Assembly: GCA_028554645.1 (NCBI GenBank)
Contig: JAQOOI010000013.1
Coordinates: forward strand, 653,336 to 717,335
Reading direction: 5' to 3'
Origin: Omphalotus guepiniiformis
Taxonomy: Eukaryota > Basidiomycota > Agaricomycetes > Agaricales > Omphalotaceae
DNA: 64,000 nucleotides
Both the position numbers and the translations under genes were made by a program. Numbering within the stretch: the stretch's first letter is position 1; the number at the start of each line of letters is the position of its first letter. A model generated the notes under the pieces. It did no database searches. It saw nothing but the letters and a program-made list of their open reading frames with translations, and had not been told where the DNA came from. Below, in pieces: positions 3,769 through 43,666 of this stretch.

Positions 3769-6551
3769 GTGATGGAAGGATATGAAGCATCAATCCTATA
3801 TATAATGCCAAGCATTGAAGAAGCAGAAGTAGATGCAAGAATGGCCTCTACCAGTAATGAGAATTCAGAAGTTCCAGATAAACCAAAAACCAGCAAACTC
3901 TCTGAACAGGAATTACTGGATAAATTTGTACCCAAACAGTATCATCAATATGCCAAAGCTTTCTCAGCCACAGAAGCTAAAGGCCTGCCACAACATAGAC
4001 CTTATAATATCAGGATTGATACTGAGGATGACAAACTACCACCCTATGGGAAGTTATACAACCTGTCAGAAAAAGAATTGAAGGTCCTCAAGGATTACAT
4101 TGATGAAATGATGGAAAAGGGATTCATTCGGCCTTCTAGTTCACCAATTGGAGCTCCAGTCTTGTTTGCCAAGAATTTTAAAAGATGGAAGTCTCAGACT
4201 GTGTGTGGACTATCGTGCACTAAATAGGCTTACAAGAAAGAATCGCTATCCCCTTCCACTCATTGGTAATCTCATTGACCAGTTGAGAAGTGCTAAAATC
4301 TACACCAAACTGGACCTCAGAGCAGGGTACAACAATATAAGGGTTGCTGAAGGACATGAATGGAAAACCTCATTTAGAACCAGATATGGTGCTTATAGGT
4401 ACTTGGTCATGCCCTTTGGTTTAACCAATGCCCCCTCTGTATTCCAGCACTTCATCAATGACATATTCCGTGACATGGTAGATGTGTTTGTTATAGTCTA
4501 TCTTGATGACATCTTGATTTTCTCAGAAAATGAGCAACAACATTTTGAACATGTCTCTAAAGTGTTGCAAAGACTGGAAGAACATGATCTGCATATCAAA
4601 CCAGAGAAATGTGAATTTTATACCAACTCTGTTGAATATCTAGGTGTCATTGTTTCTCCAGAAGGTGTCACTATGGATTCCAAGAAGATAGAAGTTATTC
4701 ATAAATGGGAGACACCAACAAATATGAAGGAGTTACAATCATTTTTGGGGTTTGCAAATTTTTATAGAAGATTCATTGACAACTATTCTGGGATAGTCAA
4801 ACCTCTCACAAGGCTTACCAGTAAAGACAAACCTTGGATCTGGATAGAAGAATGCACCACAGTCTTTGAACTCTTGAAAAAAGCATTTCAAGAAGCTCCT
4901 ATACTCCAGCACTTTGATCCAGATTTACCTATCATTGTGGAAGCTGATGCATCTGACTATGCTATAGCATCCATTATATCCCAGCAGAACAAGGAATCTG
5001 GAGAAATACACCCTATTGCATTCTATGCAAGGAGCATGACTAGTGCAGAATTGAACTATGATATCTATGATAAGGAGCTATTAGCTATTGTAGAATCATT
5101 CAAGCAGTGGCGTGCATATTTGAAAGGGTCCAAATACAAGATTGAAGTCTTCACAGATCACAATAACCTTCAATAGTTCACTACCACCAAAACTCTAAGT
5201 AGAAGGCAAGCAAGATGGTCAGAGTTTCTATCAGGATTTGACTTTGTAATCAACTACAGGCCAGGGAAATTAGGAGGAAAACCAGATGCTCTTACAAGGA
5301 AAAATGATGTCTATCTCAAGAAGTCAGCACAAGCAGCAGTGAACAATGAGAATCACAGGGTACTGCTAAATCCTGAAAGGTTATCAACTTCTCTTATTAT
5401 GAATGATGAAGCAGACCTGGCACACATCCATAATGTAGAGAAGGATAGATACTGGAAAGAGCACAAGGCTATAGCAGAATCAGAAGAGCCTGGACCATTC
5501 AAGATAGAAAATGGATTACTACTCAGAGATGGATTGGTCTATGTACCAAACAATGCTTCTCTTAGACTTAGAATCCTTCAAGTACATCATGATCATAAGC
5601 TAATTGGCCATCCTGAAATGCGTAAAACAGCACAGATGATTCACCAGACATACTTTTGGCCAGGATTGCAAAAGGATGTAAAGAAGTATGTTAGAAGTTG
5701 TCATGAATGTCTGCGAGCAAAAAGTAGTCGCTGAAAATCATTTGGTCTGCTCAAACCATTACCCATTAGTGAAAGACCATGGAGTTCCATATCAGTGGAT
5801 CATATTGGAGAACTACCAGAATCAAATGGATTTAATGCTATTATGGTTGTAGTTTGCTGGTTGACCAAACAAGCAGTATTCATAGCATGTCGTACTGATG
5901 ACAATGCTTCACAACTGGCTAAATTCTTCATCAAACACATATTCTCCAAGCATGGTCTCCCAGTGGATATAGTCTCTGATAGAGGATCTACCTTTGTGTC
6001 AACCTTTTGGCATTCACTTTGTGATGCACCAGATCTCAAAACCAATTATTTCACTGGTTATCATCCACAAACAGATGGACAAACTGAAAGAACAAACCAG
6101 AACTCTGGAGCAGTATCTCAGACTGTTTGTCAACTATGACCAGGATGATTGGGAAGAATGGCTTCCACTAGCAGAATTCACTTATAACAACTCTCCAAGT
6201 GATGCCACTGGCCTAACACCCTTCTTTGCAAATGAAGGATTTCATCCTGGATTAACCATCTCACTCAAAGGGCTGCCAAATCATCAGGCACAGTTAAAGG
6301 CTCAAGAACTTAAAGATTTCACTCTTTAGGTATTCATGAACATCAAAAGGAGTAATGAATCAGCAAAGAAGTACACCAATCCTAAAAGAAGGAAGACACC
6401 TAGTGACTGGAAGGAAGGAATGTTGGTATGGTTGAATGCAAAAAACATCAAGACTAAAAGGCCTACCAAGAAGTTGGACCATAAGCAACTGGGACCATTC
6501 AAGATAGTAAAGAAGATTTCTGATCATGCATATCGATTGGCATTACCACGC
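3769..6551 (+). pseudogene. Outer element Pol: RT, RNase H, integrase
   Basis: The RT starts near 3769 and shifts frame near 4180 in an A/T-rich run, then continues through VCVDYRALN, TKLDLRAGYN, MPFGLTNAP and the catalytic YLDDILIF. RNase H follows (EADASDYAI, DKELLAIVESF, TDHNNLQ) and is stopped by TAG at 5174. Integrase shows a zinc-binding part (H near GHPEMRKTA, CHEC) and a DDE core (VDHIGE, DRGSTF, GYHPQTDGQTERT). Further breaks are TGA 5732, a single-base insertion near 6101 and TAG 6327. The coding sequence stops at 6551, where the inner element inserted, and resumes at 21647. Pol would reverse-transcribe and integrate the element. Confidence 0.9.
6548..6551. repeat. Target-site duplication ACGC, left copy
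   Basis: ACGC lies directly before the inner element's 5' LTR and again directly after its 3' LTR (21643-21646). Deleting the insert plus one copy restores an in-frame integrase-chromodomain junction, so these are the true insertion borders. Confidence 0.9.
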
Positions 6552-8042
6552 TGTTGCGCTGAAAACGCATACACACCTGAAATACCTGAAATTAAACGAT
6601 TTCTACTGTGAATATGATGGGAATAAAGGGCTAGACTATGTCCCATAGTGCTAGCTAAAACATAGAACACGAATAGTTAAAGGCTCGAAGTGAAAGGACT
6701 ACGATGTACGAGTATGCATCAAGACCTTATGGCTGATATGCCTCTAGACCTTCGGCGAAGTAACTACCTGCTGCGAGACTGTACAGTATGGTCAGATCCA
6801 CCCTGCCTGGCAAAGAGCCCTTCGTCTGGAAGTCGCTATTCAAGTATCTGTGTAATCCACGGGACTTAGGAAGGAAGAAACTACACACACACAGGCGTAA
6901 TAGCCTCATGAGCCTAAATAACGTCGAAAGGACAAAGCTAGAGGTATTGCCGAGCCATCAAAATGGTTTGTTCGAACTTAGCCGACCTCCTAGAACTTGC
7001 AGATTGATGATATACTGGAGATAACACTTTATGATCGGAAATATATGATCGACGATTCCGTTCCGAGATACTAGATGGTCAAAGCTATGAAAATGATTGG
7101 TCTCGATGACTGTATAATAACTTATTAGTAAAGTAATGAGAGAATTGGCCTTCGAGCGCTGGATATTGGTATATCTACGAGGTGCTATGGGGTCTAGATG
7201 TCGAAATAGGAGAGAATACGGAAGCCCGACGGGATAAATGACTAGAAACTGCCCTCGGCGCCCCTATAAGTACACTGTAAAACAGTTACGAAGATGAATA
7301 ATAACAAAATGCATAGGAGTAGTTCGTTTAGAATGGCTCGAGCGCATGATAAGAAGGGTCTAGATGTACCAAAAACATCACTAAAACATAATACTTACGC
7401 ATATATACCCAAGAACTGCACATAATTACCCTCTAGACGTGCCTACTTACCCAACTCAGTCATATTGTTTCTGTTTATATCCATTTTATACTCGATGTTA
7501 TCCCTCTGTTCCTTTTAATTACTCCACTCAGTTTTCTATCTATTTATGAAATACTTACAAGCAGTAGAGTACATATACTGTCATGTATAGGGTCGAGCAC
7601 CCCAGGTTACGACTGCCCGCCAAATTGGAGAGCTTTACGTATCTTCTAGAGCGTTAAATCACAGAAGGCCTCTTGATTGTGAACGTCAGGCCCCGGTTCT
7701 TCGAGCTGGTAGAGGCAGACTATTAGGAATTGCAGTGCTTTAATAGAGTGCTAAATATCTGAACATCTGTTGTGTTTGAACTGTCTGTCTGTCTGTCTGT
7801 CTGTGTCTGTCTGTCTGTGTCTGTCTGTCTGTGTCTGTCTGTTTTTGCTGTTTCTGGTACTCGTCGAAGGGTCTAGACGGTGATCTTTCAGTTCAGTTAG
7901 TCTTTCCAACAGTCTAGCTCGACTTTAGTCAGTTTTCTGCGTGCGGAATCTTTGCCAACGCCAGACTACACTCGCTTTTACAAGGCAACCTTTGAGTTTA
8001 GACGAGTTCCTACGTCTTAGAGTGCTCATTACGCTGCTATTA
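6552..8042 (+). repeat. 5' LTR of inner element
   Basis: The LTR begins TGTTGCGCTG and ends GCTGCTATTA, so its end is TA rather than the usual CA. It matches 20166-21642 almost base for base. It contains a CTGT/GTCT microsatellite (about 7785-7845, longer than in the 3' copy) and a motif GTGCGGAATCT...CAACGCCAG at 7941-7964 that recurs in other LTR families of this window. Small open frames inside it are not supported as genes. Confidence 0.95.
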
Positions 8043-8044
8043 TC

Positions 8045-8062
8045 TGGAGCCCACCGCGAGGG
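8045..8062 (+). other. Primer-binding-site candidate
   Basis: TGGAGCCCACCGCGAGGG begins two bases after the LTR. TGG is the complement of a tRNA 3' CCA, and the position is right for a tRNA primer. I could not assign the tRNA. Confidence 0.55.
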
Positions 8063-8453
8063 GTAGTTTCAGAAAACAATTATATCGAGTTTTACTCTTG
8101 AAAGACCCCTGTGTCTAAATATCGCTGTCTTTTGACCTCGGCGAATTGAATTGACGATTTGATTTGCCTCTCGAAGTGTGAATTGTACATTTGCATAACA
8201 CTTCAAGATATTCTACTTCGAATCCGAGTCTCTTGCAAAGATTAGTGACTCTAGCCGTCGTGGAAAACCTAGAACTACACAAAATTCCCGTGAGGCTGGA
8301 CAAGAAGAATTAATATTCGAGTCTAGACCCCCTCGTCGTAGTAGAATCCCTGTTCGAAACAACTTGCCTCTGTCTAGAGAGAGGTATAGAGGAACAAACA
8401 AAGTTATAGGAGATATAAGACTACCAAGTCCTGAATTCTCTGATTTTACAAAC

Positions 8454-10031
8454 ATGCCTGATGAAGGAAATAATGCTACTGCTGGACCTGCTGGTCAAGG
8501 GTGAAACCCACAGCAGCAGAGACAACCAAATATTGATGAGGCTGCGGCAAATCAAAATCCTGGAGGAAATCGGCCGCGCCGGCCTCAACAAACTGAAGTG
8601 GTAGATGCATACTTACGAGAGCTACCTGCTGAGGTGCTCGCCGAAGTACAAAACGAGCAGTTACCGAAAGTCTCGAAGAAGGCACCCATGTTTGATAGAG
8701 ATCGTCCTGAGAAACTTGCAGGATGGCTCGAGGACTTAGAGGAAATCTTTAGGACTTTAAATATCAGATCTGAGATGGCGAAGATCCATCTAGCCTTGAA
8801 AGACATGACTTATGAGACGAGAAAGGAGCTAGCTACGCTTGATGCAGCTTCAGGAGATGATTGGGAAACATTTAGAGTTGCCTTGCTTGACTGCTATCCG
8901 GATTCTAGTGATAAGGACGGATATGGCTCGAAGCAGAGGCTCATGAGTGTAATTGAAAAGTACATGCTAGTGCCATCTGGTCAACTAGAGAAGCTTTTGG
9001 CTTTCTCAAGGGCGTATCAGATTGAAGCGAAGAAGTTAATGAGTGGACATGCTGTCATCTCGAACTTCGAGGCAGTACAAGAATATCTAGCTGCTCTAGA
9101 AGAACAGTTTAGAAAGAGAGTTATTCAAAAATTATCAACTAATGGTACTGGAGAAGGGGTTCGTCGAAGAGATGATCCTTGGACTCTAGAGCAAGTTGTA
9201 AAAGCTGCAAAAGCTGTATGTGCTATTCCTCCTGAGGAATTATATGATGTAGGAGCGAGTTGGAGCCTACCAGGTGTCATAAACACTGGAGCTAGACCCC
9301 TCTCGAGCCGACCATCTATGACTGACAGGTTAACTGCTATAAAGCAGGAGGAAGCACAGAATGAGTGGGAACGAAAGATTTCGTACACAGTAGATGATAA
9401 CGAGACGAAAATTAAGACCATTCACCAGAAGCTAGACACTATGACGAACCAGAATCAAGAGATGATGAAGTCCTTGATAAGGATGGTACAAATGTCAAGT
9501 AGAAACACTGGAAATATGGGTCTAGCGTCTTCGACGAATGTTGGTATGTCTTCTATGCCTACCAGAGGACTTCTGGACACGAGTAGAGTTATGCCTGCCC
9601 GTGATCTAGCTTGTTTCATGTGTGGAGGCAGAGGACATGGTTCACAAGACTGTCCAGCTCAACATCACTTTGTAAGTAAGAAATGGATGAAGCGAAATGC
9701 AAGGAATAGATGGGAACTAAAGGATGGTTCACCACTTCCTTGGATAAATGAAGGTGATAAAGAAACTAGAAAGGAAAAGATTGAGAAAATTGCAAAAGAG
9801 AAGGGATGGGATGTAGAAGTCCACCCAGATCAGTTCTTATATGAAGTAGAATCTATGCCAAATGTATACCAGGTGCAGCTGCACGAAGCTAGCCCCCTGG
9901 GAATGGAAAATAATGAAGTTGATACATTGGCTGTACAAGTACTTGAACAGCTAGAAAGGATGGGAGTCGAGTATAAGGCCTTGTCTGATGGACAAGTGTC
10001 TATAAACACTCCTGGAGGTTCGAAAAACTAA
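8454..10031 (+). pseudogene. Inner element Gag with one premature stop
   Basis: The frame opens at ATG 8454, meets TGA at 8502-8504 after 16 codons, and then runs uninterrupted to TAA at 10029-10031. Reading the TGA as a mutated CGA gives a protein of about 525 residues. A zinc knuckle, CFMCGGRGHGSQDC (CX2CX4HX4C), lies at 9612-9653, and the C-terminal part is Lys/Glu-rich. Gag would package the RNA in cytoplasmic particles. The frame is also open upstream of 8454 but has no earlier ATG. The next frame (10040) starts 9 bases after the stop in the -1 register. Confidence 0.85.
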
Positions 10032-10039
10032 TACTTTCG

Positions 10040-11392
10040 ATGAAGGAGCTTAAACAGGTGCTAGTTGGTGCAAAGAAGTTGCCTAGCCCTGTTCCCAGCA
10101 AAGCTCCAGAGGAAGATAATGCTGGAAAGACGTCTAGACGCCTCGAAGTGATGCTAGAGCGTCCTAAGAACTTTAATTGACACTTGTATAAACCCATAAA
10201 CAGGACGGATGAGTCATTGGAAACCCCTGAGCCTGAATTAGGCAAAGAGGCGCCCGCGCATAACGTCCCGGAAACGAAAAACTTAAATAAAAGACCATTT
10301 GATAACATAAAGCCTATTGAGAGACGAATCCAACCACCAAAAGAGGGTCTAGAAACGTCCCCAGTGACTGCTAGAACACCTAGTGTGGATATAGAAGAGT
10401 CTCGAGGCTCGGCGAAGAAGAAAGTAACATTTGATTTGCCTAAGGGACCTGAATACAAACTACAAAGTGGCGTGTACAGGCCTGGAGTTGCTGAAGAAGT
10501 GGCAACGAAGATATTAAAGAGTGAAATACCTATAAGTATGGAAGAAGTAATTGCTATTTCCCCTACTTTGCAGAAAATATTGAATAGAAAGACTAAGAAT
10601 AGTCGAGTATATAAGAGGCCTCTAAAGGCATTTGTACAAGAGATTAGAGATGAGGAAAACCCAGAAGACACTGATCTACCTGAGGATTCTACCTCTTTGC
10701 CATATGACACTCAAGTGGTGGATATTGATGATCTAGCATGGGGAGACTGCTTTGTACAGGTCCTCGAAGGCTCGAGCGGCTTGCAAACAGGATCTTTAGT
10801 CCATGTAGATGTGGTAGAACAATATCTCAAAGATGTTCCGCCGTCCGAACGAGAAAAGATTATCATTGTAGCCAGACCAAGTGATAGTCTGCGGGTTATC
10901 TTTCCTGATATTAATAAACAAGGGCCAGTCGAGTGTATACTTGACAGTGGGTCTCAAATAGTATCAATGGACACGGATATAGCAATGGGACTAGGTCTAG
11001 CCTGGGATCCAAAGACTGTTATCCATATGCAAAGTGCTAGTGGACAGCTAAGCCCAACCAGGGGTCTAGCTAGGAACGTACCGTTTACCTTTGGTGAAAT
11101 AGTTGTTTATATGCAGATTCATGTGATGGATAAAGCTCCATATAAAGTTCTGTTGGGAAGACCCTTCGATGTTTTAACAGAAAGTAATATTAAGACAAAT
11201 AAGGATGGAAGTCAAGAATTAACGATTCGAGACCCTAATTCTGGCATGACCTGCACAATGGGAACATATGAACGAGGCAGAGGTATTGGACCGAAGCCTG
11301 AAGGAGATGAAAAACTTACACCAGCTACCCAAAAAGCTGCAGAAGAGGAAAGAAGTCCACAAGATGGAAATTTTCAATCCTCGAAGATCTGA
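10040..11392 (+). pseudogene. Inner element protease frame
   Basis: ATG 10040 starts a frame interrupted by TGA at 10178-10180 (CGA-like context, coding on both sides) and ending at TGA 11390-11392. The first half is Lys/Pro/Glu-rich linker. The aspartic protease active site DSGS is at 10942-10953, followed by GRPF near 11157, typical of retropepsins. It should cleave Gag-Pol. The last codons overlap the start of the RT frame in the -1 register, with a slippery heptamer at 11368-11374, so a protease-RT fusion by frameshifting is plausible. Confidence 0.82.
11368..11374 (+). promoter_or_regulatory. Candidate -1 ribosomal frameshift site
   Basis: A AAT TTT, read in the protease frame, fits X XXY YYZ exactly. 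A -1 slip here enters the frame (tca atc ctc gaa ...) that stays open through 11566 and into RT. The protease frame would otherwise end 18 bases later. I did not model the downstream RNA structure. Confidence 0.5.
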
Positions 11393-14300
11393 CAGGCCAT
11401 CAGGGAGAGGTTGCTGTAAGTATTGGCCTAGGAGAGGATGGTAGATATGAAATAACTGGGTATAGACTGCCTGATGAGGAGACATTCTCTGATAACAAGA
11501 AGGCTGAGGCATATGTATATGCATCTCGAGCTAGCATTGAAGAGAGTGATCCCAAGGCTGCCCTTATGCTTAAAAGCTACATGAAGAAAGAAATAACCAA
11601 AGATAATTGCAAGGTATATTGTACTTGGCGTGAAGCTAAGGTACAGGATGAGAAAGTATCTTCGAGACCTGTGTATGAGGGTCTCGAGGCAGCTACTGTA
11701 TTCAATACGGCTGCTCGGACTGAGAAAATGGTTCGGCGGATGTCAAACTTACACTGTAGGATCCTACCTCGTGGAAGTAAGGCTAGATTTCGGAAACCGT
11801 TTGCAGTATTCGGCAGTAAGTATAAACCTGTGGCAATAAAAGTGAAACCAGTAAAAACTACGCTTCCAGAGGAGTTCAGGATAGAAAGGCACATAACTGG
11901 TGACCCGCTAGAAGGGATGCCGACTTTGTCGCCAAATCCACCGGACTTCACACCTGGAGAACGTTATAATGAAGAAAGAAAAGCTATTATTGAGAAGAAT
12001 CACGAAGAAGACTTCTTATGGCCCGAAGAAATGAAGCTAGTACATCACTTAATGAAGGTACAAGAGAAAGGTTTCACATGGGAAGCTTCAGAAGGGGGAA
12101 CTTTCAAGACAGAGTTCTTTCCACCTGTTAAATTTCCTGTTATACCACATACTCCATGGGTCAAGAGGAATATACCTATTCCGCCCGGGATCTATGGAGA
12201 TGTATGCAAAATAATTAAAGATAAGATTGATTCTGGGGTCTACGAACCCTTGAGCTCCTCTTATAGATCCAGATGGTTCTGTGTTTTGAAGAAAGATGGC
12301 AAAAGTTTACGGCTAGTACACAGTCTAGAACCGTTAAATAAGGTCACAATTCAACACTCAGGCATACCTCCTGCTACGGCTGACATAGCTAGAAGCTTTG
12401 CAGGCAGATCTTGTATTGGACGACTAGATGTATTTGTAGGCTATGATGAAAGGCTCGTAGATGAGGGATCTAGGGATTTGACGACATTTCAAACTCCTTT
12501 TGGCCCTCACCGACTTGTAAAACTACCAATGGGTTGGACCTAACTCAGTACCAATCTATCATGATGATATCACTTATATATTGAAAGAAGAAATTCCACA
12601 CATAACGAGACTCTATATAGATGATGTTCCAGTGAAAGGACCGTCTACTAGGTATGAGCTCGAAGGTGGAGGGTACGAAACAATTCCTGAGAACAGTGGA
12701 ATTAGAAGATTTGTATGGGAACACATGCAAAATATGAACAGAATTGTTCAACGAATGAAACATGCTGGAGGAACCTTCTCAGGACCTAAAGCATTCATTT
12801 GCTGCGCAGAAGGAAATGTTGTGGGACATAGAGTCTCGTATGAGGGTGAATTACCTGAAGAAAAGATGGCTAAGACCATTTTGTCATGGGATGCAACTCA
12901 ATGGACGAAGTGTACACACGTTAAATTGTTCTTGGGGACTGCAGGACAACTCAGGATGTTCATTAAAGACTATGCAAAGAAGGCTAGACCCCTCACGAGG
13001 TTGACTAGTTCACAAGTTCCCTTTGAGATCGGAGAAAAAGAGTTAGAAGCCGTCGAGCTATTAAAAGAAGGCATTAGAAATGCTCCGGCATTGAAACCAA
13101 TTGATTATTCGTTGTCTAGCGGCATTACTCTAGCAGTGGATACATCATGGATGGCTGTAGGATATTATTTATACCAAAGAGATCCTAATGATCCTAAAAA
13201 GAAGTTTTATAACTACTTTGGATCTATAACATTAAATGAACGGGAAGCAAGGTTCCCACAGCCTAAGAGAGAGTTATATGGGCTCAAGCTCGCGCTAGCC
13301 CATACTTACTACCAAACTTATGGCTGTAGGGATCTAACTGTAGAAACGGATGCTAGCTACATAAAAGGGATGTTAGATAACCCAAGTAGTGGCCCAAATG
13401 CAACTATTAATCGTTGGATTGAAGAAATAAGAAAGTATCACTTTGAATTGGTACATATCAAGGGGTCTATACATGGACCTGATGGACTATCTAGACCACC
13501 ACCGGGTAGTGAACCAACAGAGAGATTACCTGCTGAAGAGGAAGATTATCTAGATGAAGATGATGGGGAACCATTGCGATTTTGTCAGGAAGATGAGAAT
13601 GAGCAGGGCCCTTATGACTTTGAAGACTTTAAGCATGAGATAGACTCTAGAGGTGGATACTTACAGGGTCTAGCCTTGTCAGTAGAAGACTTCGAAGATG
13701 ATATTCAAGAATTAATTGAAGAAGAACGAAGATTCGCCTACTGGCGAGAACACATACTATTTGAACAAGGAAAGACTCTAGACCAGTTTGCACAGGTTCT
13801 AGTAGCTCCTGAATCGACAGAAGAATGGAAACATGATCATCCTTATATGGAGGAACATAGAACTACCATAGGGATTGAGCTAGATCGATTGCTACCGAGG
13901 ATAAAAGAGTTCTTAATGCATCCTGCATCGGATATGCTGGATGGGATGGATGCTCGAGCTCGAAAGAAATTTCTTTGGAAGGCGTCTCGATACTTCGTCG
14001 ACAAGAAAGGACGTATGTATCGAAGAAATGATGAAGTTGGTGGACAACATCAGCTAATAGTTGAGAAAGAACGACGTATGTATATCCTGCATAGTGCTCA
14101 TGATCATTTGGGACACAAAGGAATGTATGCTACGAAGGCTGTGATAGAAAAGAGGTTCTGGTGGCCAGAACTGGAGCGAGATGTCAACTGGTTCGTGAAA
14201 ACATGTCAGGCATGTCAAGATCGAGCTCTAGCGCTATTGAAAATACCACCTACCCTTACTCACACCCCTTCTCTGTTCCAGAAAGTACATGTGGATGTAT

Positions 14301-15442
14301 TCAAAGTATCTCCGGCTAGTAATGGCTGTAAGAACGTTGTACATGGCCGATGTGCTTTATCTTCTTGGTCAGAGGGACGAGCAATCAGAGATGAGACAGC
14401 TCGAGCCTTAGGCGAATGGTTCTTTGAAGATATAATCTGTAGATGGGGTTGCCCTCAGGAAGTGGTAACTGATAATGCTAGAAGCATGATTGCAATGTTG
14501 AAATGGCTGGAAGAGAAGTATGGGATTAAAGGGATTCGTATCTCAGCCTATAATTCTCAAGCCAATGGAAAGATCGAAAGAGCACACTTTAATATCCGTC
14601 AAGCTTTAGTAAAAGCAACGGGAGGTGATCTTAAATGTTGGTACTGGTTTCTCAAACATGTGCTTTGGGCAGACAGAGTAACAACTAGAAGAGGGTTTGG
14701 ATGTTCTCCTTACTTCTTAGTAACTGGAGCAGAACCAATACTGCCTCTAGACCTTATAGAATCAACTTGGTTGGTAGAAGTACCAGATAGAGTCCTGACT
14801 TACGAAGAATTGATTGGCTACAGGGCTAGAGCCTTGGCAAAGCATAGAACTCATGTTATGGACATGATTTCCAGGGTTGACGAAGAGAAAAGAAGAACCA
14901 TGAAGAAGTTTGAACAAGATTATGAACATGTAATAAAAGACTATGATTTCAAACCTGGAACTCTAGTACAAGTTCGAAACACTCAAATTGAGAAGAGCTT
15001 GGACAGAAAGATGTATCCAAGGTATAGAGGACCTATGATTGTCATCAGACAAACTAAGGGTGGTGCCTACATTATTGCAGAAATGGCTGGCTCTGTACTT
15101 AAAGAAAAGATTGCTGCCTTTCGTGTACTGCCGCATTTTGCAAGATATGAGCCTATAGACCTACCTACGAACGTGCTAGACCTCATAGACCTTACTGCAG
15201 AACAGCTAGAACGTATGGTGAACGAAGATGAGGATACTTACAACGAACAAAGTCGAGATTACATTTTTGACTCCATTCCGAACTTAAGAATGCCTCGAGA
15301 TGAGGAATATGAAGATGATTCTGATGAAGAAGATGATCATCCTTCTCCTGAGAGGGATTTAAGCGCAGAACCTGAAGAGATCACTGGAGTGCGAACTAGA
15401 AGCAATAAACAGTTTGTTCTATTGCGTCGAAGTGGTACTTAA
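11371..15442 (+). pseudogene. Inner element Pol: RT, RNase H, integrase
   Basis: From the slip site the frame is open to 12543. It includes the RT fingers and palm (FVGYDERL, FQTPFGPHR, LPMGWT). At 12541 an extra T shifts the frame; the sequence resumes as NSVPIYHDD and continues to 15442. The catalytic YIDDV is at 12614-12628. RNase H follows (LAVDTSWMAVGYYLY, VETDAS), then integrase with an H2C2 region (HDHLGHKG, CQACQD, about 14095-14222) and a DDE core (HVDVFK, VTDNARSM, NSQANGKIERAHF). The C-terminus is acidic and no chromodomain was seen. Only the 12541 shift breaks this 1.36-kb codon stretch, consistent with a young copy. Confidence 0.88.
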
Positions 15443-15633
15443 TCGATATTCTGAAGGCTCGAAGTAATGACAGTAATAAGAAACTCGAAAGAGTTATATG
15501 TACGAAGGTATATGAACTATATCATGAGTTGGGAGTGTAAAGTAGGTTGGAGACTCTGAATACAGGGTCTAGTGCCTATTCTCACAACAATTCAGTTAGA
15601 AAGAACTAGATTACGGGGATCGACGAAACTTAC

Positions 15634-16955
15634 TTAGGCGCTGCTAGAGTTGGTAGCTGTGGTATCAGCTGAGCTAGACCCAGCCTCCTCCATGGTAGCA
15701 TCTTGAGGGGTCTCCGAAGATGAAGAATCAGCGGTTTGCTTGTCCTCGACTGGTCGACGACTAAATTGTTCTCGTTGGATGTTGTCCATCTGTTTAACAA
15801 CGAACTGGTACTGATTGGCATGGAAATGTACAGCATGCTGAAGAGTGACTTGTTCGGTACGAAGGAAATTGAGAACTGAGCGTAAAGCTTCAACACTAAG
15901 CTTGGGCAGTTCGAGATATGGAGTGAGCGCGATATGGCGGAAAGTTGTAGCGATGGCGGCCTCTCGAAGGGTCTTATCCTCTGGTCAATATGATCAGTAG
16001 GGTCGAGACAGGGAGAAACCATGCTTACTTACCCTCAATATCCTCACGAAGATCGGAAATGGGTTGCTCGAGGCGAATGCGCTTGCCATTGGCAGCTGCA
16101 ATGTTATCCTGAGCAACTGATAAGTAATATATGGCCTTGAGGTAGGAACGAGAACGTACATCCATTCCAGGCACATCGCCGAGGGCCAATGAAAGAGTAG
16201 AAGAACGATTCGCGATGTCCTGAATGTTCAGCGAAGTTAGAATATGATGGATAAGAAGACACCGCACTTACCCTGACCTTCTTGTTGAACTTGAGGCCAG
16301 GTGGAAGGCTTAACTCTTGAGAAGGGGCATGCATAGATGCAGAAAGACCCAATGCGGCTGCGAGTCCGGCTTTATAGTCCTAAACTTAGGTCAAGTCGGA
16401 GTCTCGACCTAAGAAATATGAATACTTACTGGAGTAGAAGCAATCCGACCTCCGACGAACTCGATCTCATCATCATCATCATCGTCTTCGATGATAAGAG
16501 GGGATTTAACGTTCTGTGAAGAGTATAGAATGAAGCTTGTAAAGAATGAGGAAAGAGGAGAGTTACCTTGCGCTTACGAGTGGGCTGTCGAAGCACCTCG
16601 AGCTTGGCAAAGAACTCCTCGAGCCCATTTAGATGGTAGGGACGATTGACCCCATCAATCTCTGTAATAGCTATCACAGTGTTGAGTCCTTTCTGGAAGG
16701 TATCAAAGACGATATCATCCTTGGCCACCACTTTGGCATTCAAAGGCTTTGACTATGAAGAAATCTGAGCTCGACGAAGCCTGAGGAATATAATAAACAA
16801 ACCATATGATCGGCTAGAGCCGTCACAACTGGTCCTAGAAGCTTGGGACTGGCTTTGGGGAAGGCTTGAACGGCTTGAGCGGCAGTAATGGCCTCTTGAG
16901 TCTCCTTTAACCATTGATCCCTCTCGGGCCAGGTCTTGTTGGATCCTCGAGCCAT
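15634..16955 (-). CDS. Antisense spliced accessory gene (beta) of inner element, 354 aa, unknown
   Basis: On the strand opposite pol, six exons with GT-AG introns join in one open frame: 16955-16803, 16752-16567, 16513-16430, 16379-16272, 16219-16033 and 15980-15634. Their lengths total 1065 nt, 355 codons including TAA. The start is ATG 16955 (MARGSNKTWPERDQW). The product has a Lys/Arg patch followed by a run of six Asp (IIEDDDDDDEIEF), a helical middle segment and a Ser/Thr-rich tail. I see no enzymatic motif, signal peptide or membrane helix. It lies wholly inside the element, between pol and the 3' LTR, so it moves with it. Function is unknown; a nucleic-acid-binding or regulatory role is only a guess. 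Confidence 0.7.
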
Positions 16956-17725
16956 GTAACAATGAGATATGGACGAGAAGAAGGCGGAAGTAAGGTTGAG
17001 AATGCAGGTTGAAGGTCTTAAAGTATACTGATAACTTGGACCCACCTTCGGCGACCCTCCTTTATACTTTTCTGACTGAGAGCGGAACTACTGGTCCCTT
17101 CGACGAGGTAACATGCCCAACTGATTAAGGCACCCTGGACTTACCTAAGGGCTAGCCGAGACATGCAGCGGGGACACTGAACTTCTTTTGGTTTGGGGGA
17201 GAGGAGTCCGTCTAGGACATAGAATTTTGACATAGAATTTTGAAATTTCTAAAGATTTCATAAAATCGAAACTTAAGTGTTTTAGATTTCAATAAATCTA
17301 TATCTAAGATGGGTTGAAACAAACAAATGGGTGCCTGAGGCACAGAATGATAAGTAAAGGCACGAGACTTACGAATAACGGGTCTAGCTACTACTTACTA
17401 CATTCGAGATGGGATTGCTATAAGTCAAGTCCATACTTACAGCTTCGACGAAGGCAATCTTAAAGATATTAGATTAAATCTGAACTTAAGAATGGATTCA
17501 CACCTAAAGAAAGAACATGAAAGCTTTTATTTTGGCACTAAGGCCACGAGATTTCTATGTACAAGGTACAAGAAATGAAAACAAAGATATTTGGGCCTCT
17601 TGGAAGAGAACCCTTGCTAGATATAATGATTTTGGAGCTCTATAAAGAGACTCCTTGCTGTGATGTAATGAAAATATTATTTAAAGTCCGAAGACTGTAC
17701 GCTACGCCTCGACGAAGACCGCGAG

Positions 17726-19658
17726 TTACCTCTCCGGACTGTCCTCTGCCAGGATCCGACCAACGCTTTCCTCCTCCACCGGGGAACGGGCAGTGTTGAG
17801 TGTCGTAATGGTAGGGAGGGAGGAGGGAAAGGAAGAGCCGGCCGACGCAGGTACCCGGGAAGATGAAGCATTCGCCGAAGAGCGAAGAGGCGCGAGAGCC
17901 GAGGTAACCATGCGCTCGATGGTGCTTCGAGTGTCGGACTTAGAGAAGTCGATGGGGAGGCGCGACAAAGTCGGTTGGATCTGAAAACCAGTCTCCGTCT
18001 TCACCAGGCTCGAGTCTCGATCCACCACCGACATGTCCCAGCCCAAGCCCACACCTATCATCTTCAAATCTTCGATTTCGTCCTTGAATGAAGGGTCGTT
18101 ACGATGAAGAATGTTGAAAAGAAGGGTAGGATCGGTGACTGAACCACGAAGGTGCAACTGGTCCCGCTCGATGGACTCGCAAAGCTTATTGGCGTTGTCG
18201 GCAAGATCTAAGACGCTGCGGCGAAGTTGGTCGTATACAGAGATCTTCTCGACGAGACCAATAACTTCTGCGCCGAGGTCTGAATAAGGAAGGAAATGAG
18301 AAAAGATGTTAAATAAAAAAAAGAAATAAATGAATAACTTACTATGAGGACCTTGACGAGCCAACCCGTAGATCGTATTTCGCATCTCGAGGGCGCGAGC
18401 CGGCGTCAGGGTCCATGAACAAGGTTGCCTGCTCTTGAAGCAGACGGCGCATTTGTAGGAGGTGCTTTGTATTTCAGGAGGGACACACTTCTCTGCTGCG
18501 TGAGCTGCGGTACATCGCGTACATGGCAAGCTGCCAGTAAGCTATGAAAAGATAAACAAAATAAAAGAGTGATAAAATAAATAAGAAAGGGACTTTACTG
18601 CGTCGATGGTTCGAGTTGCGTGAAGCAAGTCGGCGAGGTTGAAAACCGTGTCACTAGCAGGATGTGTGAAGAGGCCAGCCTCAGAGACCTGATGAGAAGG
18701 ACCGGCCCTCGCTGATGAAGCAGGAGCAGGGGTCAGCGACCTTTCGCTAGCAACAGGAGATGGTTCTTTGGGAGTCGGGGCCTTTGCCTTAGGCTTGGGC
18801 TTCGGTTTGGGCTTCACTGCGCGAACGGGTGGACCAGTCTTGAGTGTTTTGGAAGGAGTAGACGCGCGAGGCTTCTTGAAGGAGAAGAGATCCATGTCGT
18901 TGTCGTCTTCTAGCAGCTCGAGCGCTCGCTTTTTCGAAGTCAGAACGGGCTAGAATGAGAAAGGATATAAGAAAGAAATTTGAAGGGAATAAGAAGAAGA
19001 AAACGAACCTCGGGCTTGACTTGGACGGACTCGTCGTCAGACTCGAGGACCTCGTCCTCTGAGTTGCTAAGAACGGTATCGTTGTCGCCACAATCGTCGC
19101 CGAGGATGGTATCGAAGTCATAGAACCAGGAAATTATATTGAATAAGATATATAAAGACTACAATAGAATAAGGACTTACAGGCTCGAGACTATGTTTCT
19201 CCTGTCGGTCGTCCTTCGAGATATACCAACCAGTCTTGTGAAGAAATGGGAGTCGAGATTCGAGGGGGTTGCAGAGTCGTACTAGGGCTAGCCACACCGG
19301 GCGCACATGCGAACAGAAATCTTCGATATCAAAGTCGACGTGCTCAAAAAGAGTATCCTAGAAAAAGAAAATGTAAGAATGAAAGATTAGAACTATAAGA
19401 AATAAAACATACCATGAAGGGCGTTGCACTTTCCACGGCCTTGGTCATTTCAGAAACCTTGGGAGGATTCTTTCGTGGTTTATCAAAGTAACGACGATAA
19501 ACGTCGACAATACATGCGATGACTTCATTGGCTTGTTCATGTGGGTTGATCTGCGCTGTCTTTCGACCGGCTCAAGTTTTCTTGGCCACAGCCAAAATTT
19601 GAGAAGAAGAGGCTGCCTTGCCCTTCCCTTTGGAAGCTTTGCCAGTGGTTCGCGCCAT
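17726..19658 (-). pseudogene. Antisense spliced accessory gene (alpha) of inner element, Cys-rich, unknown
   Basis: The start is ATG 19658 (MARTTGKASKGKGK). Exon 1 (19658-19413) contains TGA at 19574-19572 where CGA would continue the frame. Exon 2 is 19357-19181. An acidic exon ends at 19009, but the acceptor before it is not clear (TTCTATG where AG is expected). Then 18949-18599 (Lys/Pro repeats), 18541-18343 and 18279-17726, the last two joining as 251 codons with TAA. Exon 5 encodes a cysteine cluster, CTRC...KC...CAVC...PC, resembling a zinc-binding module. The C-terminal part is helical. It is probably a nuclear or nucleic-acid-binding protein, but that is inference. This copy carries at least one nonsense mutation. 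Confidence 0.6.
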
Positions 19659-20152
19659 TAGAAGTAAAGAAAGAACAAGTATCTATAGAGAAAGGCAGAG
19701 GGATAGAGCCACTCTGGGAGAGAAAAGTAGAGAGAAAGAAAGAATGGACGTGAAAAGTTGAAGTCCGTTTACTTATGGAACGACTCACCTGACCACATTC
19801 CCACGGCGCACGGACCAGTGAAAGGCTGAGAGATGCGTGAAAAGAAAGAATAGAGAAGCAAGAAACTGAATAAGAGATGTGAAAGAGAAAAAGAGACGGA
19901 AAGTCACTTGCCTGAAAAGAACATACAGCAATTGCCGAAGGCAAACAGCTGGCTGAGAGTATTTTGGTCGGAGTTTGAAATTTGATGATCGGCATAGACC
20001 GGCAAAAGCAATGAACAGTGTACCACTGCTTCGGCGAACTCTGAGATGTGTGTGAATAAGTATTATATAATCAACAGGCTGTCTGCGAAGCTTTAGAATG
20101 TATCTTTGGCTGTATGACTGACCGATCACCAGACCGGGGACGGTCTAGATTT

Positions 20153-20165
20153 GGTTTGGGGGAGA
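20153..20165 (+). other. Polypurine tract of inner element
   Basis: GGTTTGGGGGAGA abuts the 3' LTR start at 20166. Position and composition fit the plus-strand primer site of an LTR retrotransposon. Confidence 0.8.
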
Positions 20166-21642
20166 TGTTGCGCTGAAAACGCATACACACCTGAAATACC
20201 TGAAATTAAACGATTTCTACTGTGAATATGATGGGAATAAAGGGCTAGACTATGTCCCATAGTGCTAGCTAAAACATAGAACACGAATAGTTAAAGGCTC
20301 GAAGTGAAAGGACTACGATGTACGAGTATGCATCAAGACCTTATGGCTGATATGCCTCTAGACCTTCGGCGAAGTAACTACCTGCTGCGAGACTGTACAG
20401 TATGGTCAGATCCACCCTGCCTGGCAAAGAGCCCTTCGTCTGGAAGTCGCTATTCAAGTATCTGTGTAATCCACGGGACTTAGGAAGGAAGAAACTACAC
20501 ACACACAGGCGTAATAGCCTCATGAGCCTAAATAACGTCGAAAGGACAAAGCTAGAGGTATTGCCGAGCCATCAAAATGGTTTGTTCGAACTTAGCCGAC
20601 CTCCTAGAACTTGCAGATTGATGATATACTGGAGATAACACTTTATGATCGGAAATATATGATCGACGATTCCGTTCCGAGATACTAGATGGTCAAAGCT
20701 ATGAAAATGATTGGTCTCGATGACTGTATAATAACTTATTAGTAAAGTAATGAGAGAATTGGCCTTCGAGCGCTGGATATTGGTATATCTACGAGGTGCT
20801 ATGGGGTCTAGATGTCGAAATAGGAGAGAATACGGAAGCCCGACGGGATAAATGACTAGAAACTGCCCTCGGCGCCCCTATAAGTACACTGTAAAACAGT
20901 TACGAAGATGAATAATAACAAAATGCATAGGAGTAGTTCGTTTAGAATGGCTCGAGCGCATGATAAGAAGGGTCTAGATGTACCAAAAACATCACTAAAA
21001 CATAATACTTACACATATATACCCAAGAACTGCACATAATTACCCTCTAGACGTGCCTACTTACCCAACTCAGTCATATTGTTTCTGTTTATATCCATTT
21101 TATACTCGATGTTATCCCTCTGTTCCTTTTAATTACTCCACTCAGTTTTCTATTTATTTATGAAATACTTACAAGCAGTAGAGGACATATACTGTCATGT
21201 ATAGGGTCGAGCACCCCAGGTTACGACTGCCCGCCAAATTGGAGAACTTTACGTATCTTCTAGAGCGTTAAATCACAGAAGGCCTCTTGATTGTGAACGT
21301 CAGGCCCCGGTTCTTCGAGCTGGTAGAGGCAGACTATTAGGAATTGCAGTGCTTTAAAAGAGTGCTAAATATCTGAACATCTGTTGTGTTTGAACTGTCT
21401 GTCTGTCTGTCTGTCTGTGTCTGTCTGTCTGTGTCTGTCTGTTTTTGCTGTTTCTGGTACTCGTCGAAGGATCTAGATGGTGATCTTTCAGTTCAGTTAG
21501 TCTTTCCAACAGTCTAGCTCGACTTTAGTCAGTTTTCTGCGTGCGGAATCTTTGCCAACGCCAGACTACACTCGCTTTTACAAGGCAACCTTTGAGTTTA
21601 GATGAGTTCCTACGTCTTAGAGTGCTCATTACGCTGCTATTA
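20166..21642 (+). repeat. 3' LTR of inner element
   Basis: A direct copy of 6552-8042, 14 bp shorter because the CTGT array lost one block. I found eight single-base differences over the rest. It starts TGTTGCGCTG, ends CTGCTATTA, and is followed by the ACGC duplication. Confidence 0.95.
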
Positions 21643-21646
21643 ACGC
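21643..21646. repeat. Target-site duplication ACGC, right copy
   Basis: Second copy of the 4-bp duplication (see 6548-6551). Confidence 0.9.
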
Positions 21647-21997
21647 AGCATGCAAACTCTTCATAATACATTTCATGTGGACTTGTTGACTGCTAATCCA
21701 CCAGAACATTTTCCCCAATGTCGACAACCACCTCCTCCCCCAGTTGAAATTGATGATGAAGAACACTATGAAGTGGAACAGATTTTGGATAACCATAGAA
21801 GATGGGGAAGAATGGAATACCTAGTCCGCTGGAAAGGTTATGATCCAGAACATGACTCTTGGGAACCAATTAGAAATGTGGTTGGATCTCAAGAATACAT
21901 TGAAGATTTTTACCAAAAGCATCCCAACAAAATAGGACTTCATGATGGTGAATTGGAGAGAGCAGTAGAACAAGAAAGAAGTCAAACTCAGAAATAA
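21647..21997 (+). pseudogene. Outer element integrase tail and chromodomain
   Basis: Joined to 6551 (through one ACGC), this continues the outer Pol. It has the linker motif HNTFHVDLL, a proline stretch and a chromodomain: YEVEQILDNH, EYLVRWKGY, SWEP. The aromatic cage positions (Y, W, W) are present. Chromodomains direct integration towards modified histone tails. The frame is intact to TAA at 21995-21997 even though the remainder of Pol is broken. It was physically separated from its integrase by the 15-kb insertion. Confidence 0.9.
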
Positions 21998-22100: not shown

Positions 22101-23253
22101 CTAATTATCAAACTCTGGATACTCCAATTCCCCTCCACCATCTCCCTCATCATCAACAGTCAGGTCAATAATAGCAGGAGACAAACCTGTAACTGTTTCA
22201 TCATCATCCAAGTCAATAACCACTGGATTGATATGAGATTCAGCTACAGTCCAGGCACTGGGATAAGTGATGCGAGAGATGTTAGAGAAGAGGTGAGCAA
22301 GAGCATTAGCAATACCAAGACGTTGGAAATGTAGAGACAGGAGTTCATCTTGAGTGAGACGAGCATGTGAAATAGTTCCCATCATCTTGTCAAAGCTCTC
22401 AACAAGCCAGAATTCTAGTGTCTCCACCTCCATCTGCCCCTCTGACAACTGGTGTTGAGCCTGAAAAACACCCCACACAATGGTCTCCAAGTCCCGACAA
22501 AGTGCATCAAAGAAGGGGGTAGGGTCCGCACAAAGTCCCCTATAAGCCATATCAGCTAGAATCCTATGAAGCACCGTTTCCTGTTCCAACTCCCGATGAA
22601 GGTGTACAATTTCCACATCACGCTCCTTAAGCTGACCATTACAACAAGATTGAGCAGCTACCACACAGTAGTATGATTTCTTAATATGATTCAATTGCAC
22701 TACCTGACCTTGTAGGGTTGCTGCTAATTGACCCATGCGAGAACCAGTGTTGCGAGCTACAGTCAATTCTTCCTGAGTACGAGCAAGATCACTAGGGAAG
22801 GATATCAGCAACGGCAGCAAAAAGAACATGAGAGAATAGGCAACATACCTTTCAAGAGACTTCTTTTCATCCTCTAATGTTTGTTTATCGTCCATAAGAA
22901 GCTTCGCTCGAGCGCAAAGGCTAGCAACGAGCCTTACAGACTATCAATACTACACCACAGAATGGTGATTTACACTTACCTAGCCCCTAAAGTTTCACCT
23001 CGAAAAACCGTCGGCTCATTGATTTTCAATTGTTCCTTGTATTCCACTTCGAGTTCTCTAATACGGCTAAGAAAGTCGGTCAGTACCCTTGGGCAATCAA
23101 AGTTGAAAGAAATGCTCACACATCCACAAGTTCTCGAAGATCTAGAGCTGGCATCACTGGAATGTTCATCCAAGTGAGAGAGCCACCCCCAGCAACATGA
23201 GGAACAAGATCAGCCAATACAGAGGTCTGAGTAGCGGAAGTTTCGAAGTTCAT
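22101..23253 (-). CDS. Antisense spliced gene of outer chromovirus, 327 aa, unknown
   Basis: Four exons on the strand opposite pol, 23253-23120, 23066-22980, 22920-22849 and 22791-22101, have GT-AG borders (GTGAGC, GTAAGT, GTATGT donors) and join to 984 nt without a stop. The start is ATG 23253 (MNFETSATQ); the end is TAG 22103-22101. The product is Glu/Leu/Arg-rich with probable coiled-coil (RIRELEVEYKEQL, LARTQEEL), then a segment with DPTPFFDALCRDLE, and an acidic tail (VVIDLDDDE, IIDLTVDDE). The VIDL/IDLTV tail resembles a SUMO-interaction motif; that is inference. It starts 1.26 kb beyond the chromodomain and is transcribed towards it. No homologous function is known to me. Confidence 0.68.
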
Positions 23254-24375: not shown

Positions 24376-26206
24376 TGTTGTGACTATGAAATGAACGAGA
24401 GAGATACTCAAATGAGCACTATCCAACTCAAATCAAAAATGATGTAGGGTGAGGTGTGACTGGCGTTGTCAGAGATTCCGCACAGTTAGACGCAACAATT
24501 GAACTTCGAATCTGCAGGGTTACAGATGTCTTTATCTCAATCTGGGTGAAAAATGGCAGAGGGTATCTCAAAACACAAGATTCAGACAGAAGGTAAGGGT
24601 GGTTTTCAGGGTTCAGGAGGGATTCAGGACAATCAATCTCGATGTTAAACTCAATTCAATGGTCAGACAATGCAGGGAACAGTTTCAGATGCAGCACAGA
24701 CAGTTTCAGCAGGCAGATTCAGCACAGACAGAATAGCAGTTTCAGCAAAGATTCAGTATCTCTTTCAATTTATCTGCCACAAGGGACTTTACAGAAGTTT
24801 TCACAGGATATTTCTTGAACTGAACTCTAAAGAGCCAGGCTATATTTTGTCTAAGAAGGGTTTCCTGCTTTGGCTTGTAGCTTTGGGCAGTACTTGCTTA
24901 AGAAAATCTAAATAGATACTCTATAAGCTATATATACTAAATCATAAAATCAAAACATATATCTCGAAATTAAAAGAGTAATCTGAACAGTAAATGAGTC
25001 AAAAGTAAGTAAGTATCAATTGAGCAGAGATTGGATTCTTTTTTAGGTAGTTTTCTAGGTAATTTTCCAGTTAGATAGTCAAAAGTAGGAACTTTGGGTA
25101 TAGATTGGTATAAAAACAGAAATATATCGCTTTGTCCGCGTTCTAGGTGTGTTAGGGCGTACCCAGGGTATCTAAATAAAGGTCCAGAACATGGAAATAG
25201 CAACTAGTATCATGACAGTTGACATTCTCCTTAGTGCATTGCAAATCTGGTCCCCTATAAGTTTCTCCAAAATTGGCACATTCTCCTCTACTAGGGCAGC
25301 ATTAGGAGTTGTGTAGAAGCTCTAGAGCTTATCTAGACCATGCTTTATTGTTTCTATCAGCCACAGTAAGGTACAGTAACTGTTTATTTCAAGTTTTACC
25401 CCTATACATCTCTTTTTGGTCAGATTTGTACTCAGGTTATATTTCTTGTTTAGGATAGCTCTCAGCTTCTCCTGGGACAGTATTCTATCCCATAGTTTTG
25501 TCTAAGACCTCCAATCAGAGTGCCTTTGTCTTTCATCAAGTTCAGAGGGTTACTGAATTTCAGAGAGATACTCAGATCCAGAGAGATACTCATTTTCAGT
25601 ATCTAACTCCTTTCATCATGAGTATTGAGTATCTAACTCATTTGTGCAGATAAAACTTTGAATCTACTTCCATTATTACACAGATTGGCATTTCATCTTA
25701 GTGACATTATGTTCACATAGTACTTAATGTACAATATTTCTCTGGTAATACAATCTTCAAGATTGCCCATATTCTCAGCATTCAATCTTGTAGTGCCAAC
25801 TTAGTTAGCAAGACCAGCTGGAACTTTTGATCAGTCCAAAGGACTTAGATAGTTGTTCAATTGAAGTGAAAATCCATCAACCCCTTGGATTACAGTCAAC
25901 AACACTTGGTAGAGTCTCTAGTTATTAGAGGGTGGGTCTGACCAACTCAATCTGGTATGGAACATTGGAATTCCAACACATCTGGAGAGGCATAACTAGT
26001 ATAACCCATTGGTCACAGTTGCTTAGCACCAGATTTAGTACTGTAGCAATCACTACACTTAGGCATTGTGAGTACAAGTATGTTTCATGTCTTAACTAGC
26101 AGTCTGGGGTGACTCTAGTCCTTTATGTTCAGTTTCCAATGCTTGAACATTCCATATTTACTTCAATCTGATAGATTTCAGTACTGAAAGGCTTTTTGAC
26201 GCAACA
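24376..26206 (-). repeat. Solo LTR, 1831 bp, flanked by TCGC
   Basis: On the minus strand it starts TGTTGCGTC at 26206 and ends GTCACAACA at 24376, with terminal TGTTG/CAACA. TCGC occurs at 24372-24375 and 26207-26210, a 4-bp target duplication, so this is a solo LTR. It is largely the reverse complement of 28375-30086. The start resembles that of the inner element (TGTTGCG) and the GTGCGGAATCT...CAACGCC motif is at 24483-24460, so it belongs to a related lineage. Confidence 0.85.
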
Positions 26207-28200: not shown

Positions 28201-28374
28201 ATCCTATTCTTCTAGTGATATTTGATACATCACTCTTCACATCTCCCCTTTCTATAGACTATCACTTCAGTTTTCCATTGTGTTCTTTGAGTAGATTCTC
28301 AATTAATACAACTTAGCCTCCAACCCCCATACTGTGGATCAGAGTAACTAACCCTTACCTTCTGTTCCCTAACA

Positions 28375-30971: not shown

Positions 30972-31235
30972 CCAATAGCAACACCTGACTGGTGATAGCT
31001 CTGAAGTTTGGATTTGATCTTGTCGACAACTTCTGGATAGGGTGTCAAAACACCAACCCTTCCTGTGCGAGCCAAAACAGAGCAACGAGAAACATTGTCC
31101 AAAGTCTTCTTTGACTATCGGTGTCCATGTTTTGAAATCTATTTATAGACAGTTCCTCGATGCAGACATGAGAAGAACTCTGGCATCTGATTCTGAAGTG
31201 TGGATGCAATGGGTTGAGGAGACCATGAAACCCGT

Positions 31236-32604: not shown

Positions 32605-32898
32605 CCGTGGTGCAATATGGTCAATATGGACCCACAGAAATGGATGATACCAATTCACCCGCTCATGTCTGTGCTGCACAACTCCACCCTTCTTTCCATT
32701 CTGCTTCAACTTCCAGTTCTTTCCTGGTCTGGATAGTTGCAAGATATCTGACACTTCACCTTCAGGCCGGTGATATCCCAATACAGCCTCCTTCACCTAC
32801 TTTCCTTTTGCCTTGTGCCTGTGGTCAGCCTTATCTTTCTGAACCTTCTGACAATGGCGCTGTTGCTATTTGTGATTTAATTCCCACTTCCTATCCTC

Positions 32899-36886: not shown

Positions 36887-36929
36887 ATCATCAGAATATG
36901 CAGGGATATTAGCAGTAGCATCAGGAGAG

Positions 36930-38369: not shown

Positions 38370-38762
38370 GAGCAGTTGAGTAAGTATTTTATTGTAGAAT
38401 GTATTGTGTTTATTTCCTGGATATTGAATATTGAATCTCAACTTGACATGTAAATGCATATGGCTATGCTTCTATTCTTGCTCTATCTCATTGTACACTC
38501 CAGTGTCTGAGGATCATTGTATGTCTTCCCAACACTCTATAGTCCTGAAACTTGTCCATAACTCATTCAAATAGATTTTCTATCTGATGCCAGTTGGAAT
38601 TTGTGAGCTGCTATTCTGGATGTGCAGAAATATCCCAGCCATTGTACAGATAGATGTATCTGTGATATCCAGGTGAGTTCTCCATGGAATCTCTTTATTC
38701 TAGGCATTAAAAGAAGCTTAATTGTGGTCTATTTGAAGGCCTGAAAACTGCTTGTACATCGC
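38370..38762. other. No gene seen
   Basis: AT-rich spacer; no frame, LTR or repeat recognised. Confidence 0.5.
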
Positions 38763-40524: not shown

Positions 40525-40639
40525 CTTATATGCCCAATCAATACAAGCCTAATCATGAGTTTCAGACTTTGAATATATCTGGTGCTTAGTCTTATTTTAT
40601 TCTATAAAAGCTCCTTTGGAGCTCATTTGTTCATGGATG

Positions 40640-43665: not shown

Positions 43666-43666
43666 A

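Follow-up and report, generated by a model that had tools for sequence, protein, structure and literature searches.

The window, which is the whole stretch of 64,000 nucleotides that we analysed, comes from contig JAQOOI010000013.1 of the basidiomycete Omphalotus guepiniiformis, whose genome assembly comprises 42.5 Mb in 80 contigs. An LTR retrotransposon spans positions 6552-21642 (Table 1). Its LTRs (6552-8042 and 20166-21642) are 98.5% identical over 1491 columns, with 8 mismatches and one gap, and an ACGC duplication is found on both sides of the pair, as in elements of the Ty3/Gypsy type; in Pfam searches the domains follow each other in the order protease ORF, RNase H and integrase zinc-binding domain. 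The 4.7 kb between the end of pol and the 3' LTR hold two genes on the antisense strand, here called A and B. The element is itself inserted in an older chromodomain element, whose RT begins at 4112, and beyond the chromodomain lies a third antisense gene, C.

Table 1. Coordinates of the features discussed, in window positions.
Feature	Positions	Strand	Basis or detail
Target-site duplication ACGC, left copy	6548..6551	.	Flank match
5' LTR	6552..8042	+	LTR-LTR alignment
gag-like ORF, 508 aa	8505..10031	+	Open frame; knuckle motif
Protease ORF, 403 aa	10181..11392	+	Asp_protease_2 and DUF4100 above Pfam cut-off
pol upstream piece (RT region)	11311..12543	+	Out of frame with next piece in window copy
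pol RNase H and integrase part, 973 aa	12521..15442	+	RT_RNaseH, RT_RNaseH_2, Integrase_H2C2 above cut-off
Gene A exon 7 and stop, most conserved part	15634..15980	-	Copy comparison
Gene A exon 6	16033..16108	-	Spliced frame reading
Gene A intron 5, 51 nt; exonic in the first-pass annotation	16109..16159	-	Copies L045, L046
Gene A exon 5	16160..16219	-	Spliced frame reading
Gene A exon 4	16272..16379	-	Spliced frame reading
Gene A exon 3, acidic run then IEFV	16430..16513	-	Spliced frame reading
Gene A exon 2	16567..16752	-	Spliced frame reading
Gene A exon 1	16803..16955	-	Spliced frame reading
Candidate gene A promoter box TATAAAGG	17059..17066	-	111 nt before ATG; putative function
Internal polypurine tract	17187..17203	+	Copy of tract beside 3' LTR
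Gene B exon 6 and stop	17726..18279	-	Spliced frame reading
Gene B exon 5, six-cysteine motif	18343..18541	-	Spliced frame reading
Gene B exon 4	18599..18949	-	Spliced frame reading
Gene B exon 3	19009..19125	-	Spliced frame reading
Gene B exon 2; next intron ends GG, not AG, in window copy	19181..19357	-	
Gene B exon 1; premature TGA at codon 29 in window copy	19413..19658	-	Spliced frame reading
Polypurine tract adjoining 3' LTR	20150..20165	+	Sequence reading
3' LTR	20166..21642	+	LTR-LTR alignment
Target-site duplication ACGC, right copy	21643..21646	.	Flank match
Chromodomain end of older element	21653..21997	+	Pfam Chromo 6.9e-15
Gene C, 331 aa, intact	22101..23253	-	Exons 23253-23120, 23066-22980, 22932-22849, 22791-22101

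The first-pass annotation had described both gag and pol of this element as broken. This is so for pol, which is split between 11311-12543 and 12521-15442, the former piece giving no Pfam match, but the gag-like ORF at 8505-10031 is open; no Pfam model scored above cut-off for it, and it carries a CX2CX4HX4C motif that we take to be a knuckle. The same annotation had pictured a single host-style gene in a broken element, a picture that our results do not support: there are two antisense genes, the family is multi-copy, and 31 of the 47 pol matches listed are open for 1,364 codons or more with no internal stop, so that the element families are not relics. These 47 matches are the ones scored among 585 first-look candidates in the genome. 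Neither Rfam nor a tRNA search found anything in the window. The target site of the element seems to be NCGN, with a middle CG at 29 of the 31 readable outer ends of the 3' LTR in a sample made up of 21643-21646 and the flanks of L009-L043 (duplication on both sides was checked in the window copy only), and the CG dinucleotide background in 44-64 kb is 4.7%; the exceptions are L038, which reads CA, and L042, where the LTR is followed by a sequence resembling a primer-binding site and not by a true flank. Elsewhere in the window, an inverted repeat in several pieces (24449-26092 and 28374-30015, arms of about 1.6 kb, 93-97% complementary, 2.3 kb apart) was observed, and 31229-44248 contains direct and inverted copies of units of about 0.2-0.3 kb, at 31.3, 38.9, 42.4 and 43.7 kb, which are probably another nested repeat cluster.

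Gene A had been annotated as an antisense gene with canonical intron borders and an unbroken frame, and its coordinates, strand, borders and frame are all confirmed, the ATG being at 16955 and the TAA at 15636-15634. The reported six exons and 354 codons were obtained by leaving in the 51-nt intron 5 (16159-16109), which has no in-frame stop, and the better model has 337 codons in seven exons, separated by six GT-AG introns of 50-53 nt each. An intron at the same place is needed in a copy of a fourth family (L046) and is present in a copy of a sister family (L045); for this reason we take intron 5 as an intron and reject the six-exon, 354-codon form as the main one, while its retention might possibly yield an isoform. 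A TATA-like box precedes the gene A ATG in L046 as well, at 89 nt. Just upstream of gene A, within a block common to L045 and L046, the internal polypurine tract at 17187-17203 reads TTTGGTTTGGGGGAGA, as does the tract adjoining the 3' LTR, and TTTGGGGGAG occurs twice in the window, both times on the plus strand, and nowhere else there. This internal tract could prime plus-strand synthesis or form part of the gene A promoter.

Full or nearly full copies of gene A are found at 36 places in the genome, in addition to two short fragments. All six introns keep GT-AG in 35 of the 36, and 27 are fully intact, the others being L020, L021, L032, L035, L037, L039, L040, L042 and L043. The window copy and L009 are separated by 17 synonymous changes (237 sites) and 4 nonsynonymous ones (774 sites), a dN/dS of 0.07; in non-coding sequence the same two copies differ at 8 of 254 intron positions and at 44 of 686 positions in the 700 nt upstream. 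In a tree of 34 of the 36 copies (L040 and L043 left out), the counts of synonymous and nonsynonymous changes are 43 and 17 on internal branches (dN/dS 0.12), with 46 of 61 internal-branch changes at third codon positions, and 67 and 87 on terminal branches (dN/dS 0.40; Fisher p 2.4e-4 for internal versus terminal counts). The dN/dS test that the first-pass annotation had proposed thus gave values well below 1 between lineages, both for the window with L009 and on internal branches. Higher values were obtained with the old copies L041 or L042 (0.24-0.50), between L038 and L039 (0.48) and in pairs with the truncated L043 (0.36-0.71). Such a branch pattern is expected if the gene is constrained while the element replicates and decays once it has inserted, but the terminal value is 0.40 and not 1. 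Gene A is antisense, lies between pol and the 3' LTR, is present in most copies and is constrained like pol, properties that it shares with the antisense accessory ORF known as aORF-3R in plant elements.

Relatives of the three genes were sought in this one genome. A search with the last exon of gene A from L045 gave 126 matches: 17 at 96-100% identity, none of them with a stop; 44 at 73-81%, of which 43 have no stop; 35 in the window's own family, at 33-36%; 26 in a fourth group at 28-34%, with 25 free of stops and 21 at E<=0.001; and four outside these main classes. Fourteen places of the sister family are identical in protein to L045, three of them being identical and 11 being 97-99% identical in DNA, so that the changes at those 11 are silent. 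In the second group (73-81%), among the matches listed, DNA identity is 78-79% and protein identity mostly 80-81%. Of the 47 pol matches listed, from three element families, 45 are followed after 226-412 bp by an antisense match to the last exon, and the remaining two are truncated pol matches; four of the 126 exon matches were omitted from this adjacency count (two pieces on C33, the fragment C20:2195344 and a doubtful match on C65). A lack of homologues in other LTR elements, which the first-pass annotation had named as a refutation, is therefore not what we found, since they occur there at the same place, and no match outside element-like places was seen among those listed (119 of 277 candidates scored). 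Pattern scans of viral contigs with gene A exon 7 and gene B exon 6 found no relative.

The one place of the fourth group that was read in detail, L046, has by a spliced model seven exons, 329 codons and six GT-AG introns. Its intron phases are 0,0,0,0,0,1, as in the window gene, and the two share KPLN after intron 1, RKRK before intron 2 and an acidic patch in exon 3, at 34% identity in the last exon. For L045 a spliced model is possible from exon 3 onwards, and its phases, 0,0,0,1, equal those of introns 3-6 of the window gene. Exons 1-2 were sought in L045 and not recognised, so that the whole gene A protein is not conserved everywhere; the sister family has either lost or replaced them. 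In L045, a polypurine tract and an LTR-like start were seen by eye about 1 kb past the internal tract, which leaves no room for gene B.

Gene B, overlooked in the first-pass annotation, runs from 19658 to 17726 in six exons and is broken in the window copy. A model in which its intron 2 ends seven nt further downstream was dropped after other copies had been read. The gene exists as two alleles, B1 and B2, and both are present in this one genome. It is intact in 22 of the 32 copies that could be typed (18 of 27 with B1, 4 of 5 with B2); four copies were left untyped, L010 and L042 having no usable gene, L041 being partial and L026 chimeric. B1 (547 aa, in L009) and B2 (539 aa, in L013) share 315 of 534 aligned residues, or 59%, and all five introns are at the same places and in the same phases; the two alleles give a dN/dS of about 0.13, their synonymous sites being close to saturated. 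L009 and the window differ in gene B by 63 synonymous and 16 nonsynonymous changes. Seven of nine comparisons within B1 gave dN/dS of 0.07-0.16, the remaining two being that with L034 (0.32, one change of each kind) and L009-L043 (0.79), and six control comparisons of the pol end gave 0.09-0.17. Judged by these substitution counts, gene B is under about as much constraint as pol.

The two alleles sit in otherwise nearly identical elements. L009 and L013 are 99-100% identical in 3' LTR windows and 97-100% in the pol end and gene A, whose exons differ at 2 of 1014 positions, yet across gene B their identity is only 59-66%. The divergent block begins within about 40 nt of the gene B ATG and ends about 0.1 kb past the stop. 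L025 has B2 and its close relative L016 has B1, and L026 changes from B2 to B1 inside the six-cysteine exon, where it is out of frame, a switch that catches recombination in the act. These alignments show gene B alleles moving between elements whose sequence on both sides of the gene is 97-100% identical, with template switching between co-packaged RNAs as the likely cause. A genome search with gene B (79 of 196 candidates scored) also found two places outside the window's family, C31:124392-124847 and C35:194840-195298, that are 80% identical to the gene B end (residues 395-547), each about 3 kb from a chromodomain match.

Gene C was likewise overlooked. It is antisense and has four exons, and by eye no kinship with A or B is apparent. 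The genome contains 13 long matches to gene C; each of them follows a chromodomain at a distance of 110-143 bp, on the opposite strand, and 11 have no stop. A degraded match on C27 also adjoins a chromodomain match; two short weak matches on C20 do not.

In Pfam no model scored above cut-off for A, B or C, so that the original description of the gene A product as having no recognised function stands. A PDB search with the three proteins gave nothing above cut-off, and no solved structure matched below E 0.45. Exon 5 of gene B has the spacing CX2CX8CX11CX2CX6C in both alleles. Fungal Zn(II)2Cys6 clusters have the spacing CX2CX6CX5-12CX2CX6-8C, and the array of gene B is similar but does not satisfy it, its first loop having eight residues and not six; no Pfam zinc-cluster model matched at E up to 1. 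In the three families read, A has, by eye, an acidic run and then IEFV, IEVI or VEVI, which we take to resemble a SUMO-interacting motif, and both gene B alleles contain VKPE or IKTE, presumably similar to a SUMO-attachment motif. Together with RKRK and the six cysteines, these motifs are weak hints that A and B may be nuclear.

Antisense accessory genes are known from other LTR elements. Zhao et al. (2011) reportedly dealt with brtn of Boty-like elements. In the accessible text of two papers, brtn is an antisense gene of these elements in Botrytis cinerea (PMC7264820, PMC8365987); it is, by description, another extra antisense gene in a fungal LTR element, but it is a single gene in an ascomycete element, whereas the element of the window is basidiomycete and has two. 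Plant elements provide further cases (Retand with a TRP28 domain, Grande gene23 and RIRE2), and as far as the accessible text goes these too lie antisense between pol and the 3' LTR, occur in most copies and are conserved like other element proteins, the Grande product being nuclear and having its own promoter (PMC11963269, PMC7264820). TRP28 (PF04195), which the Retand lineage has, was matched at E up to 1 by none of the proteins described here (A, B1, B2 and C). The word intron is absent from the main text of these plant papers in the form available, whereas A has six introns, B five and C three. The HBZ and APH genes of HTLV-1 to -4 are described, in the accessible part of a review, as spliced antisense transcripts encoding nuclear regulators (PMC10186651). 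They resemble A and B as spliced antisense coding genes in an LTR element, predicted from sequence in our case, but HBZ transcripts start in the 3' LTR, while A and B seem to have their own start regions and contain six and five introns, and the Pfam search found no bZIP domain in the antisense proteins. The legend of a figure in a fungal survey mentions an additional ORF of unknown function (PMC2864245, accessible in part). A literature search, made largely without subscription papers, did not find multi-exon antisense genes in a basidiomycete element. The deep conservation of introns, the presence of two genes and the exchange of alleles set the present case apart from the antisense accessory genes known in plant, Botrytis and HTLV elements.

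The open spliced frames, selection against protein change, the place beside pol, the old introns and the exchange of gene B are read directly from the sequence. Together they lead us to consider A and B, with a probability of roughly 0.8, as true accessory genes that code for proteins and that a Ty3/Gypsy-type LTR retrotransposon carries in antisense orientation between pol and its 3' LTR. RNA polymerase II would transcribe each of them from its own minus-strand promoter, the TATA-like box serving as a promoter element in the case of A, and the host would splice the transcripts. In the genomic RNA of the element the introns would be present solely as their reverse complement, a form that the spliceosome cannot recognise, and each round of reverse transcription would then copy the antisense introns faithfully. 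That introns survive through antisense placement had been proposed in the first-pass annotation, and a spliced antisense gene between integrase and LTR lends support to it: the introns would persist because the element's own RNA holds only their reverse complement. The probable site of action of the proteins is the nucleus, where they would affect how their own element is expressed or integrated, as hinted by the zinc-cluster-like cysteine spacing in B and the basic RKRK and acidic patch in A.

That these frames are open by chance, without coding function, is a notion for which we found nothing in favour beyond the absence of a known domain; intact copies, dN/dS, the tree, the B alleles, silent changes in the sister family and the splice models refute it for A and B as coding sequence, and we regard its chances as negligible. 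The antisense RNA might instead be the functional product, as double-stranded RNA or through interference with sense transcription, the proteins being incidental, and antisense transcripts are indeed discussed as regulators in plant elements in the accessible text of PMC7264820. This we find very improbable, given that selection acts on codons, with most internal-branch changes at third positions, and that B1 and B2 keep their shared residues and five intron places despite near-saturated synonymous divergence. Equally improbable is that a host gene or pair was recently captured, or that the element landed on one, leaving the frame as a passive remnant: introns of 50-53 nt are host-style, but the gene keeps the same place beside nearly all listed pol matches, its last exon has matches in four groups that have diverged to 28-36% identity, and L046 has the same intron phases, all of which speak against it.

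What A and B do for the element is a separate matter. Selection that keeps both working suggests an as-yet undescribed benefit, and we tentatively favour, at somewhat less than even odds, a role that helps the element in the nucleus, by relief of silencing or by assistance to its RNA or integration, since they are constrained as strongly as pol and four groups of elements have retained the last exon of A. The direction of the effect is nevertheless a guess. Against the reading of A and B as accessory genes weigh the higher dN/dS of older or broken copies (0.24-0.71 for A, 0.79 for B in L009-L043), which decay after insertion would also produce, the unrecognised exons 1-2 of gene A in L045 and the failure to assign a domain. 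The main rival of the helper role is self-restriction, in which A and B would repress transcription or integration of the element and keep its copy number tolerable, in the manner of HBZ or of copy-number control. Strong constraint fits any trans-acting role, and deltaretroviral antisense proteins repress sense transcription according to the accessible part of PMC10186651. Selection among copies, however, should quickly discard a self-repressor unless host survival pays, and in the windows compared, elements with B1 and elements with B2 have LTRs that are 99-100% identical, which argues that B has not coevolved with a target in the LTR; we consider self-restriction unlikely. A further reading, itself doubtful, would make A and B two spliced nuclear regulators, with B1 and B2 as interchangeable specificity types that recombination at the gene borders swaps between nearly identical elements. 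As the LTRs do not follow the swap, these types would be aimed at host factors, for example the silencing machinery, and not at the element's own promoter, and the introns would lock the module to one strand. If this is true, only the antisense transcript would be translatable, and the module would thereby be separated from the genomic RNA.

Reverse transcription normally strips introns from the cargo of an element. The six introns of gene A keep their phases across elements whose proteins are only about one-third identical, and antisense genes with introns can consequently be long-term parts of retroelements. Two element lineages in one window carry such genes with unrelated proteins, which looks like a repeated solution. 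The exchange of gene B alleles provides a handle on the target of selection, and among the 'hypothetical proteins' of fungal annotations, those with several exons may be retrotransposon genes.
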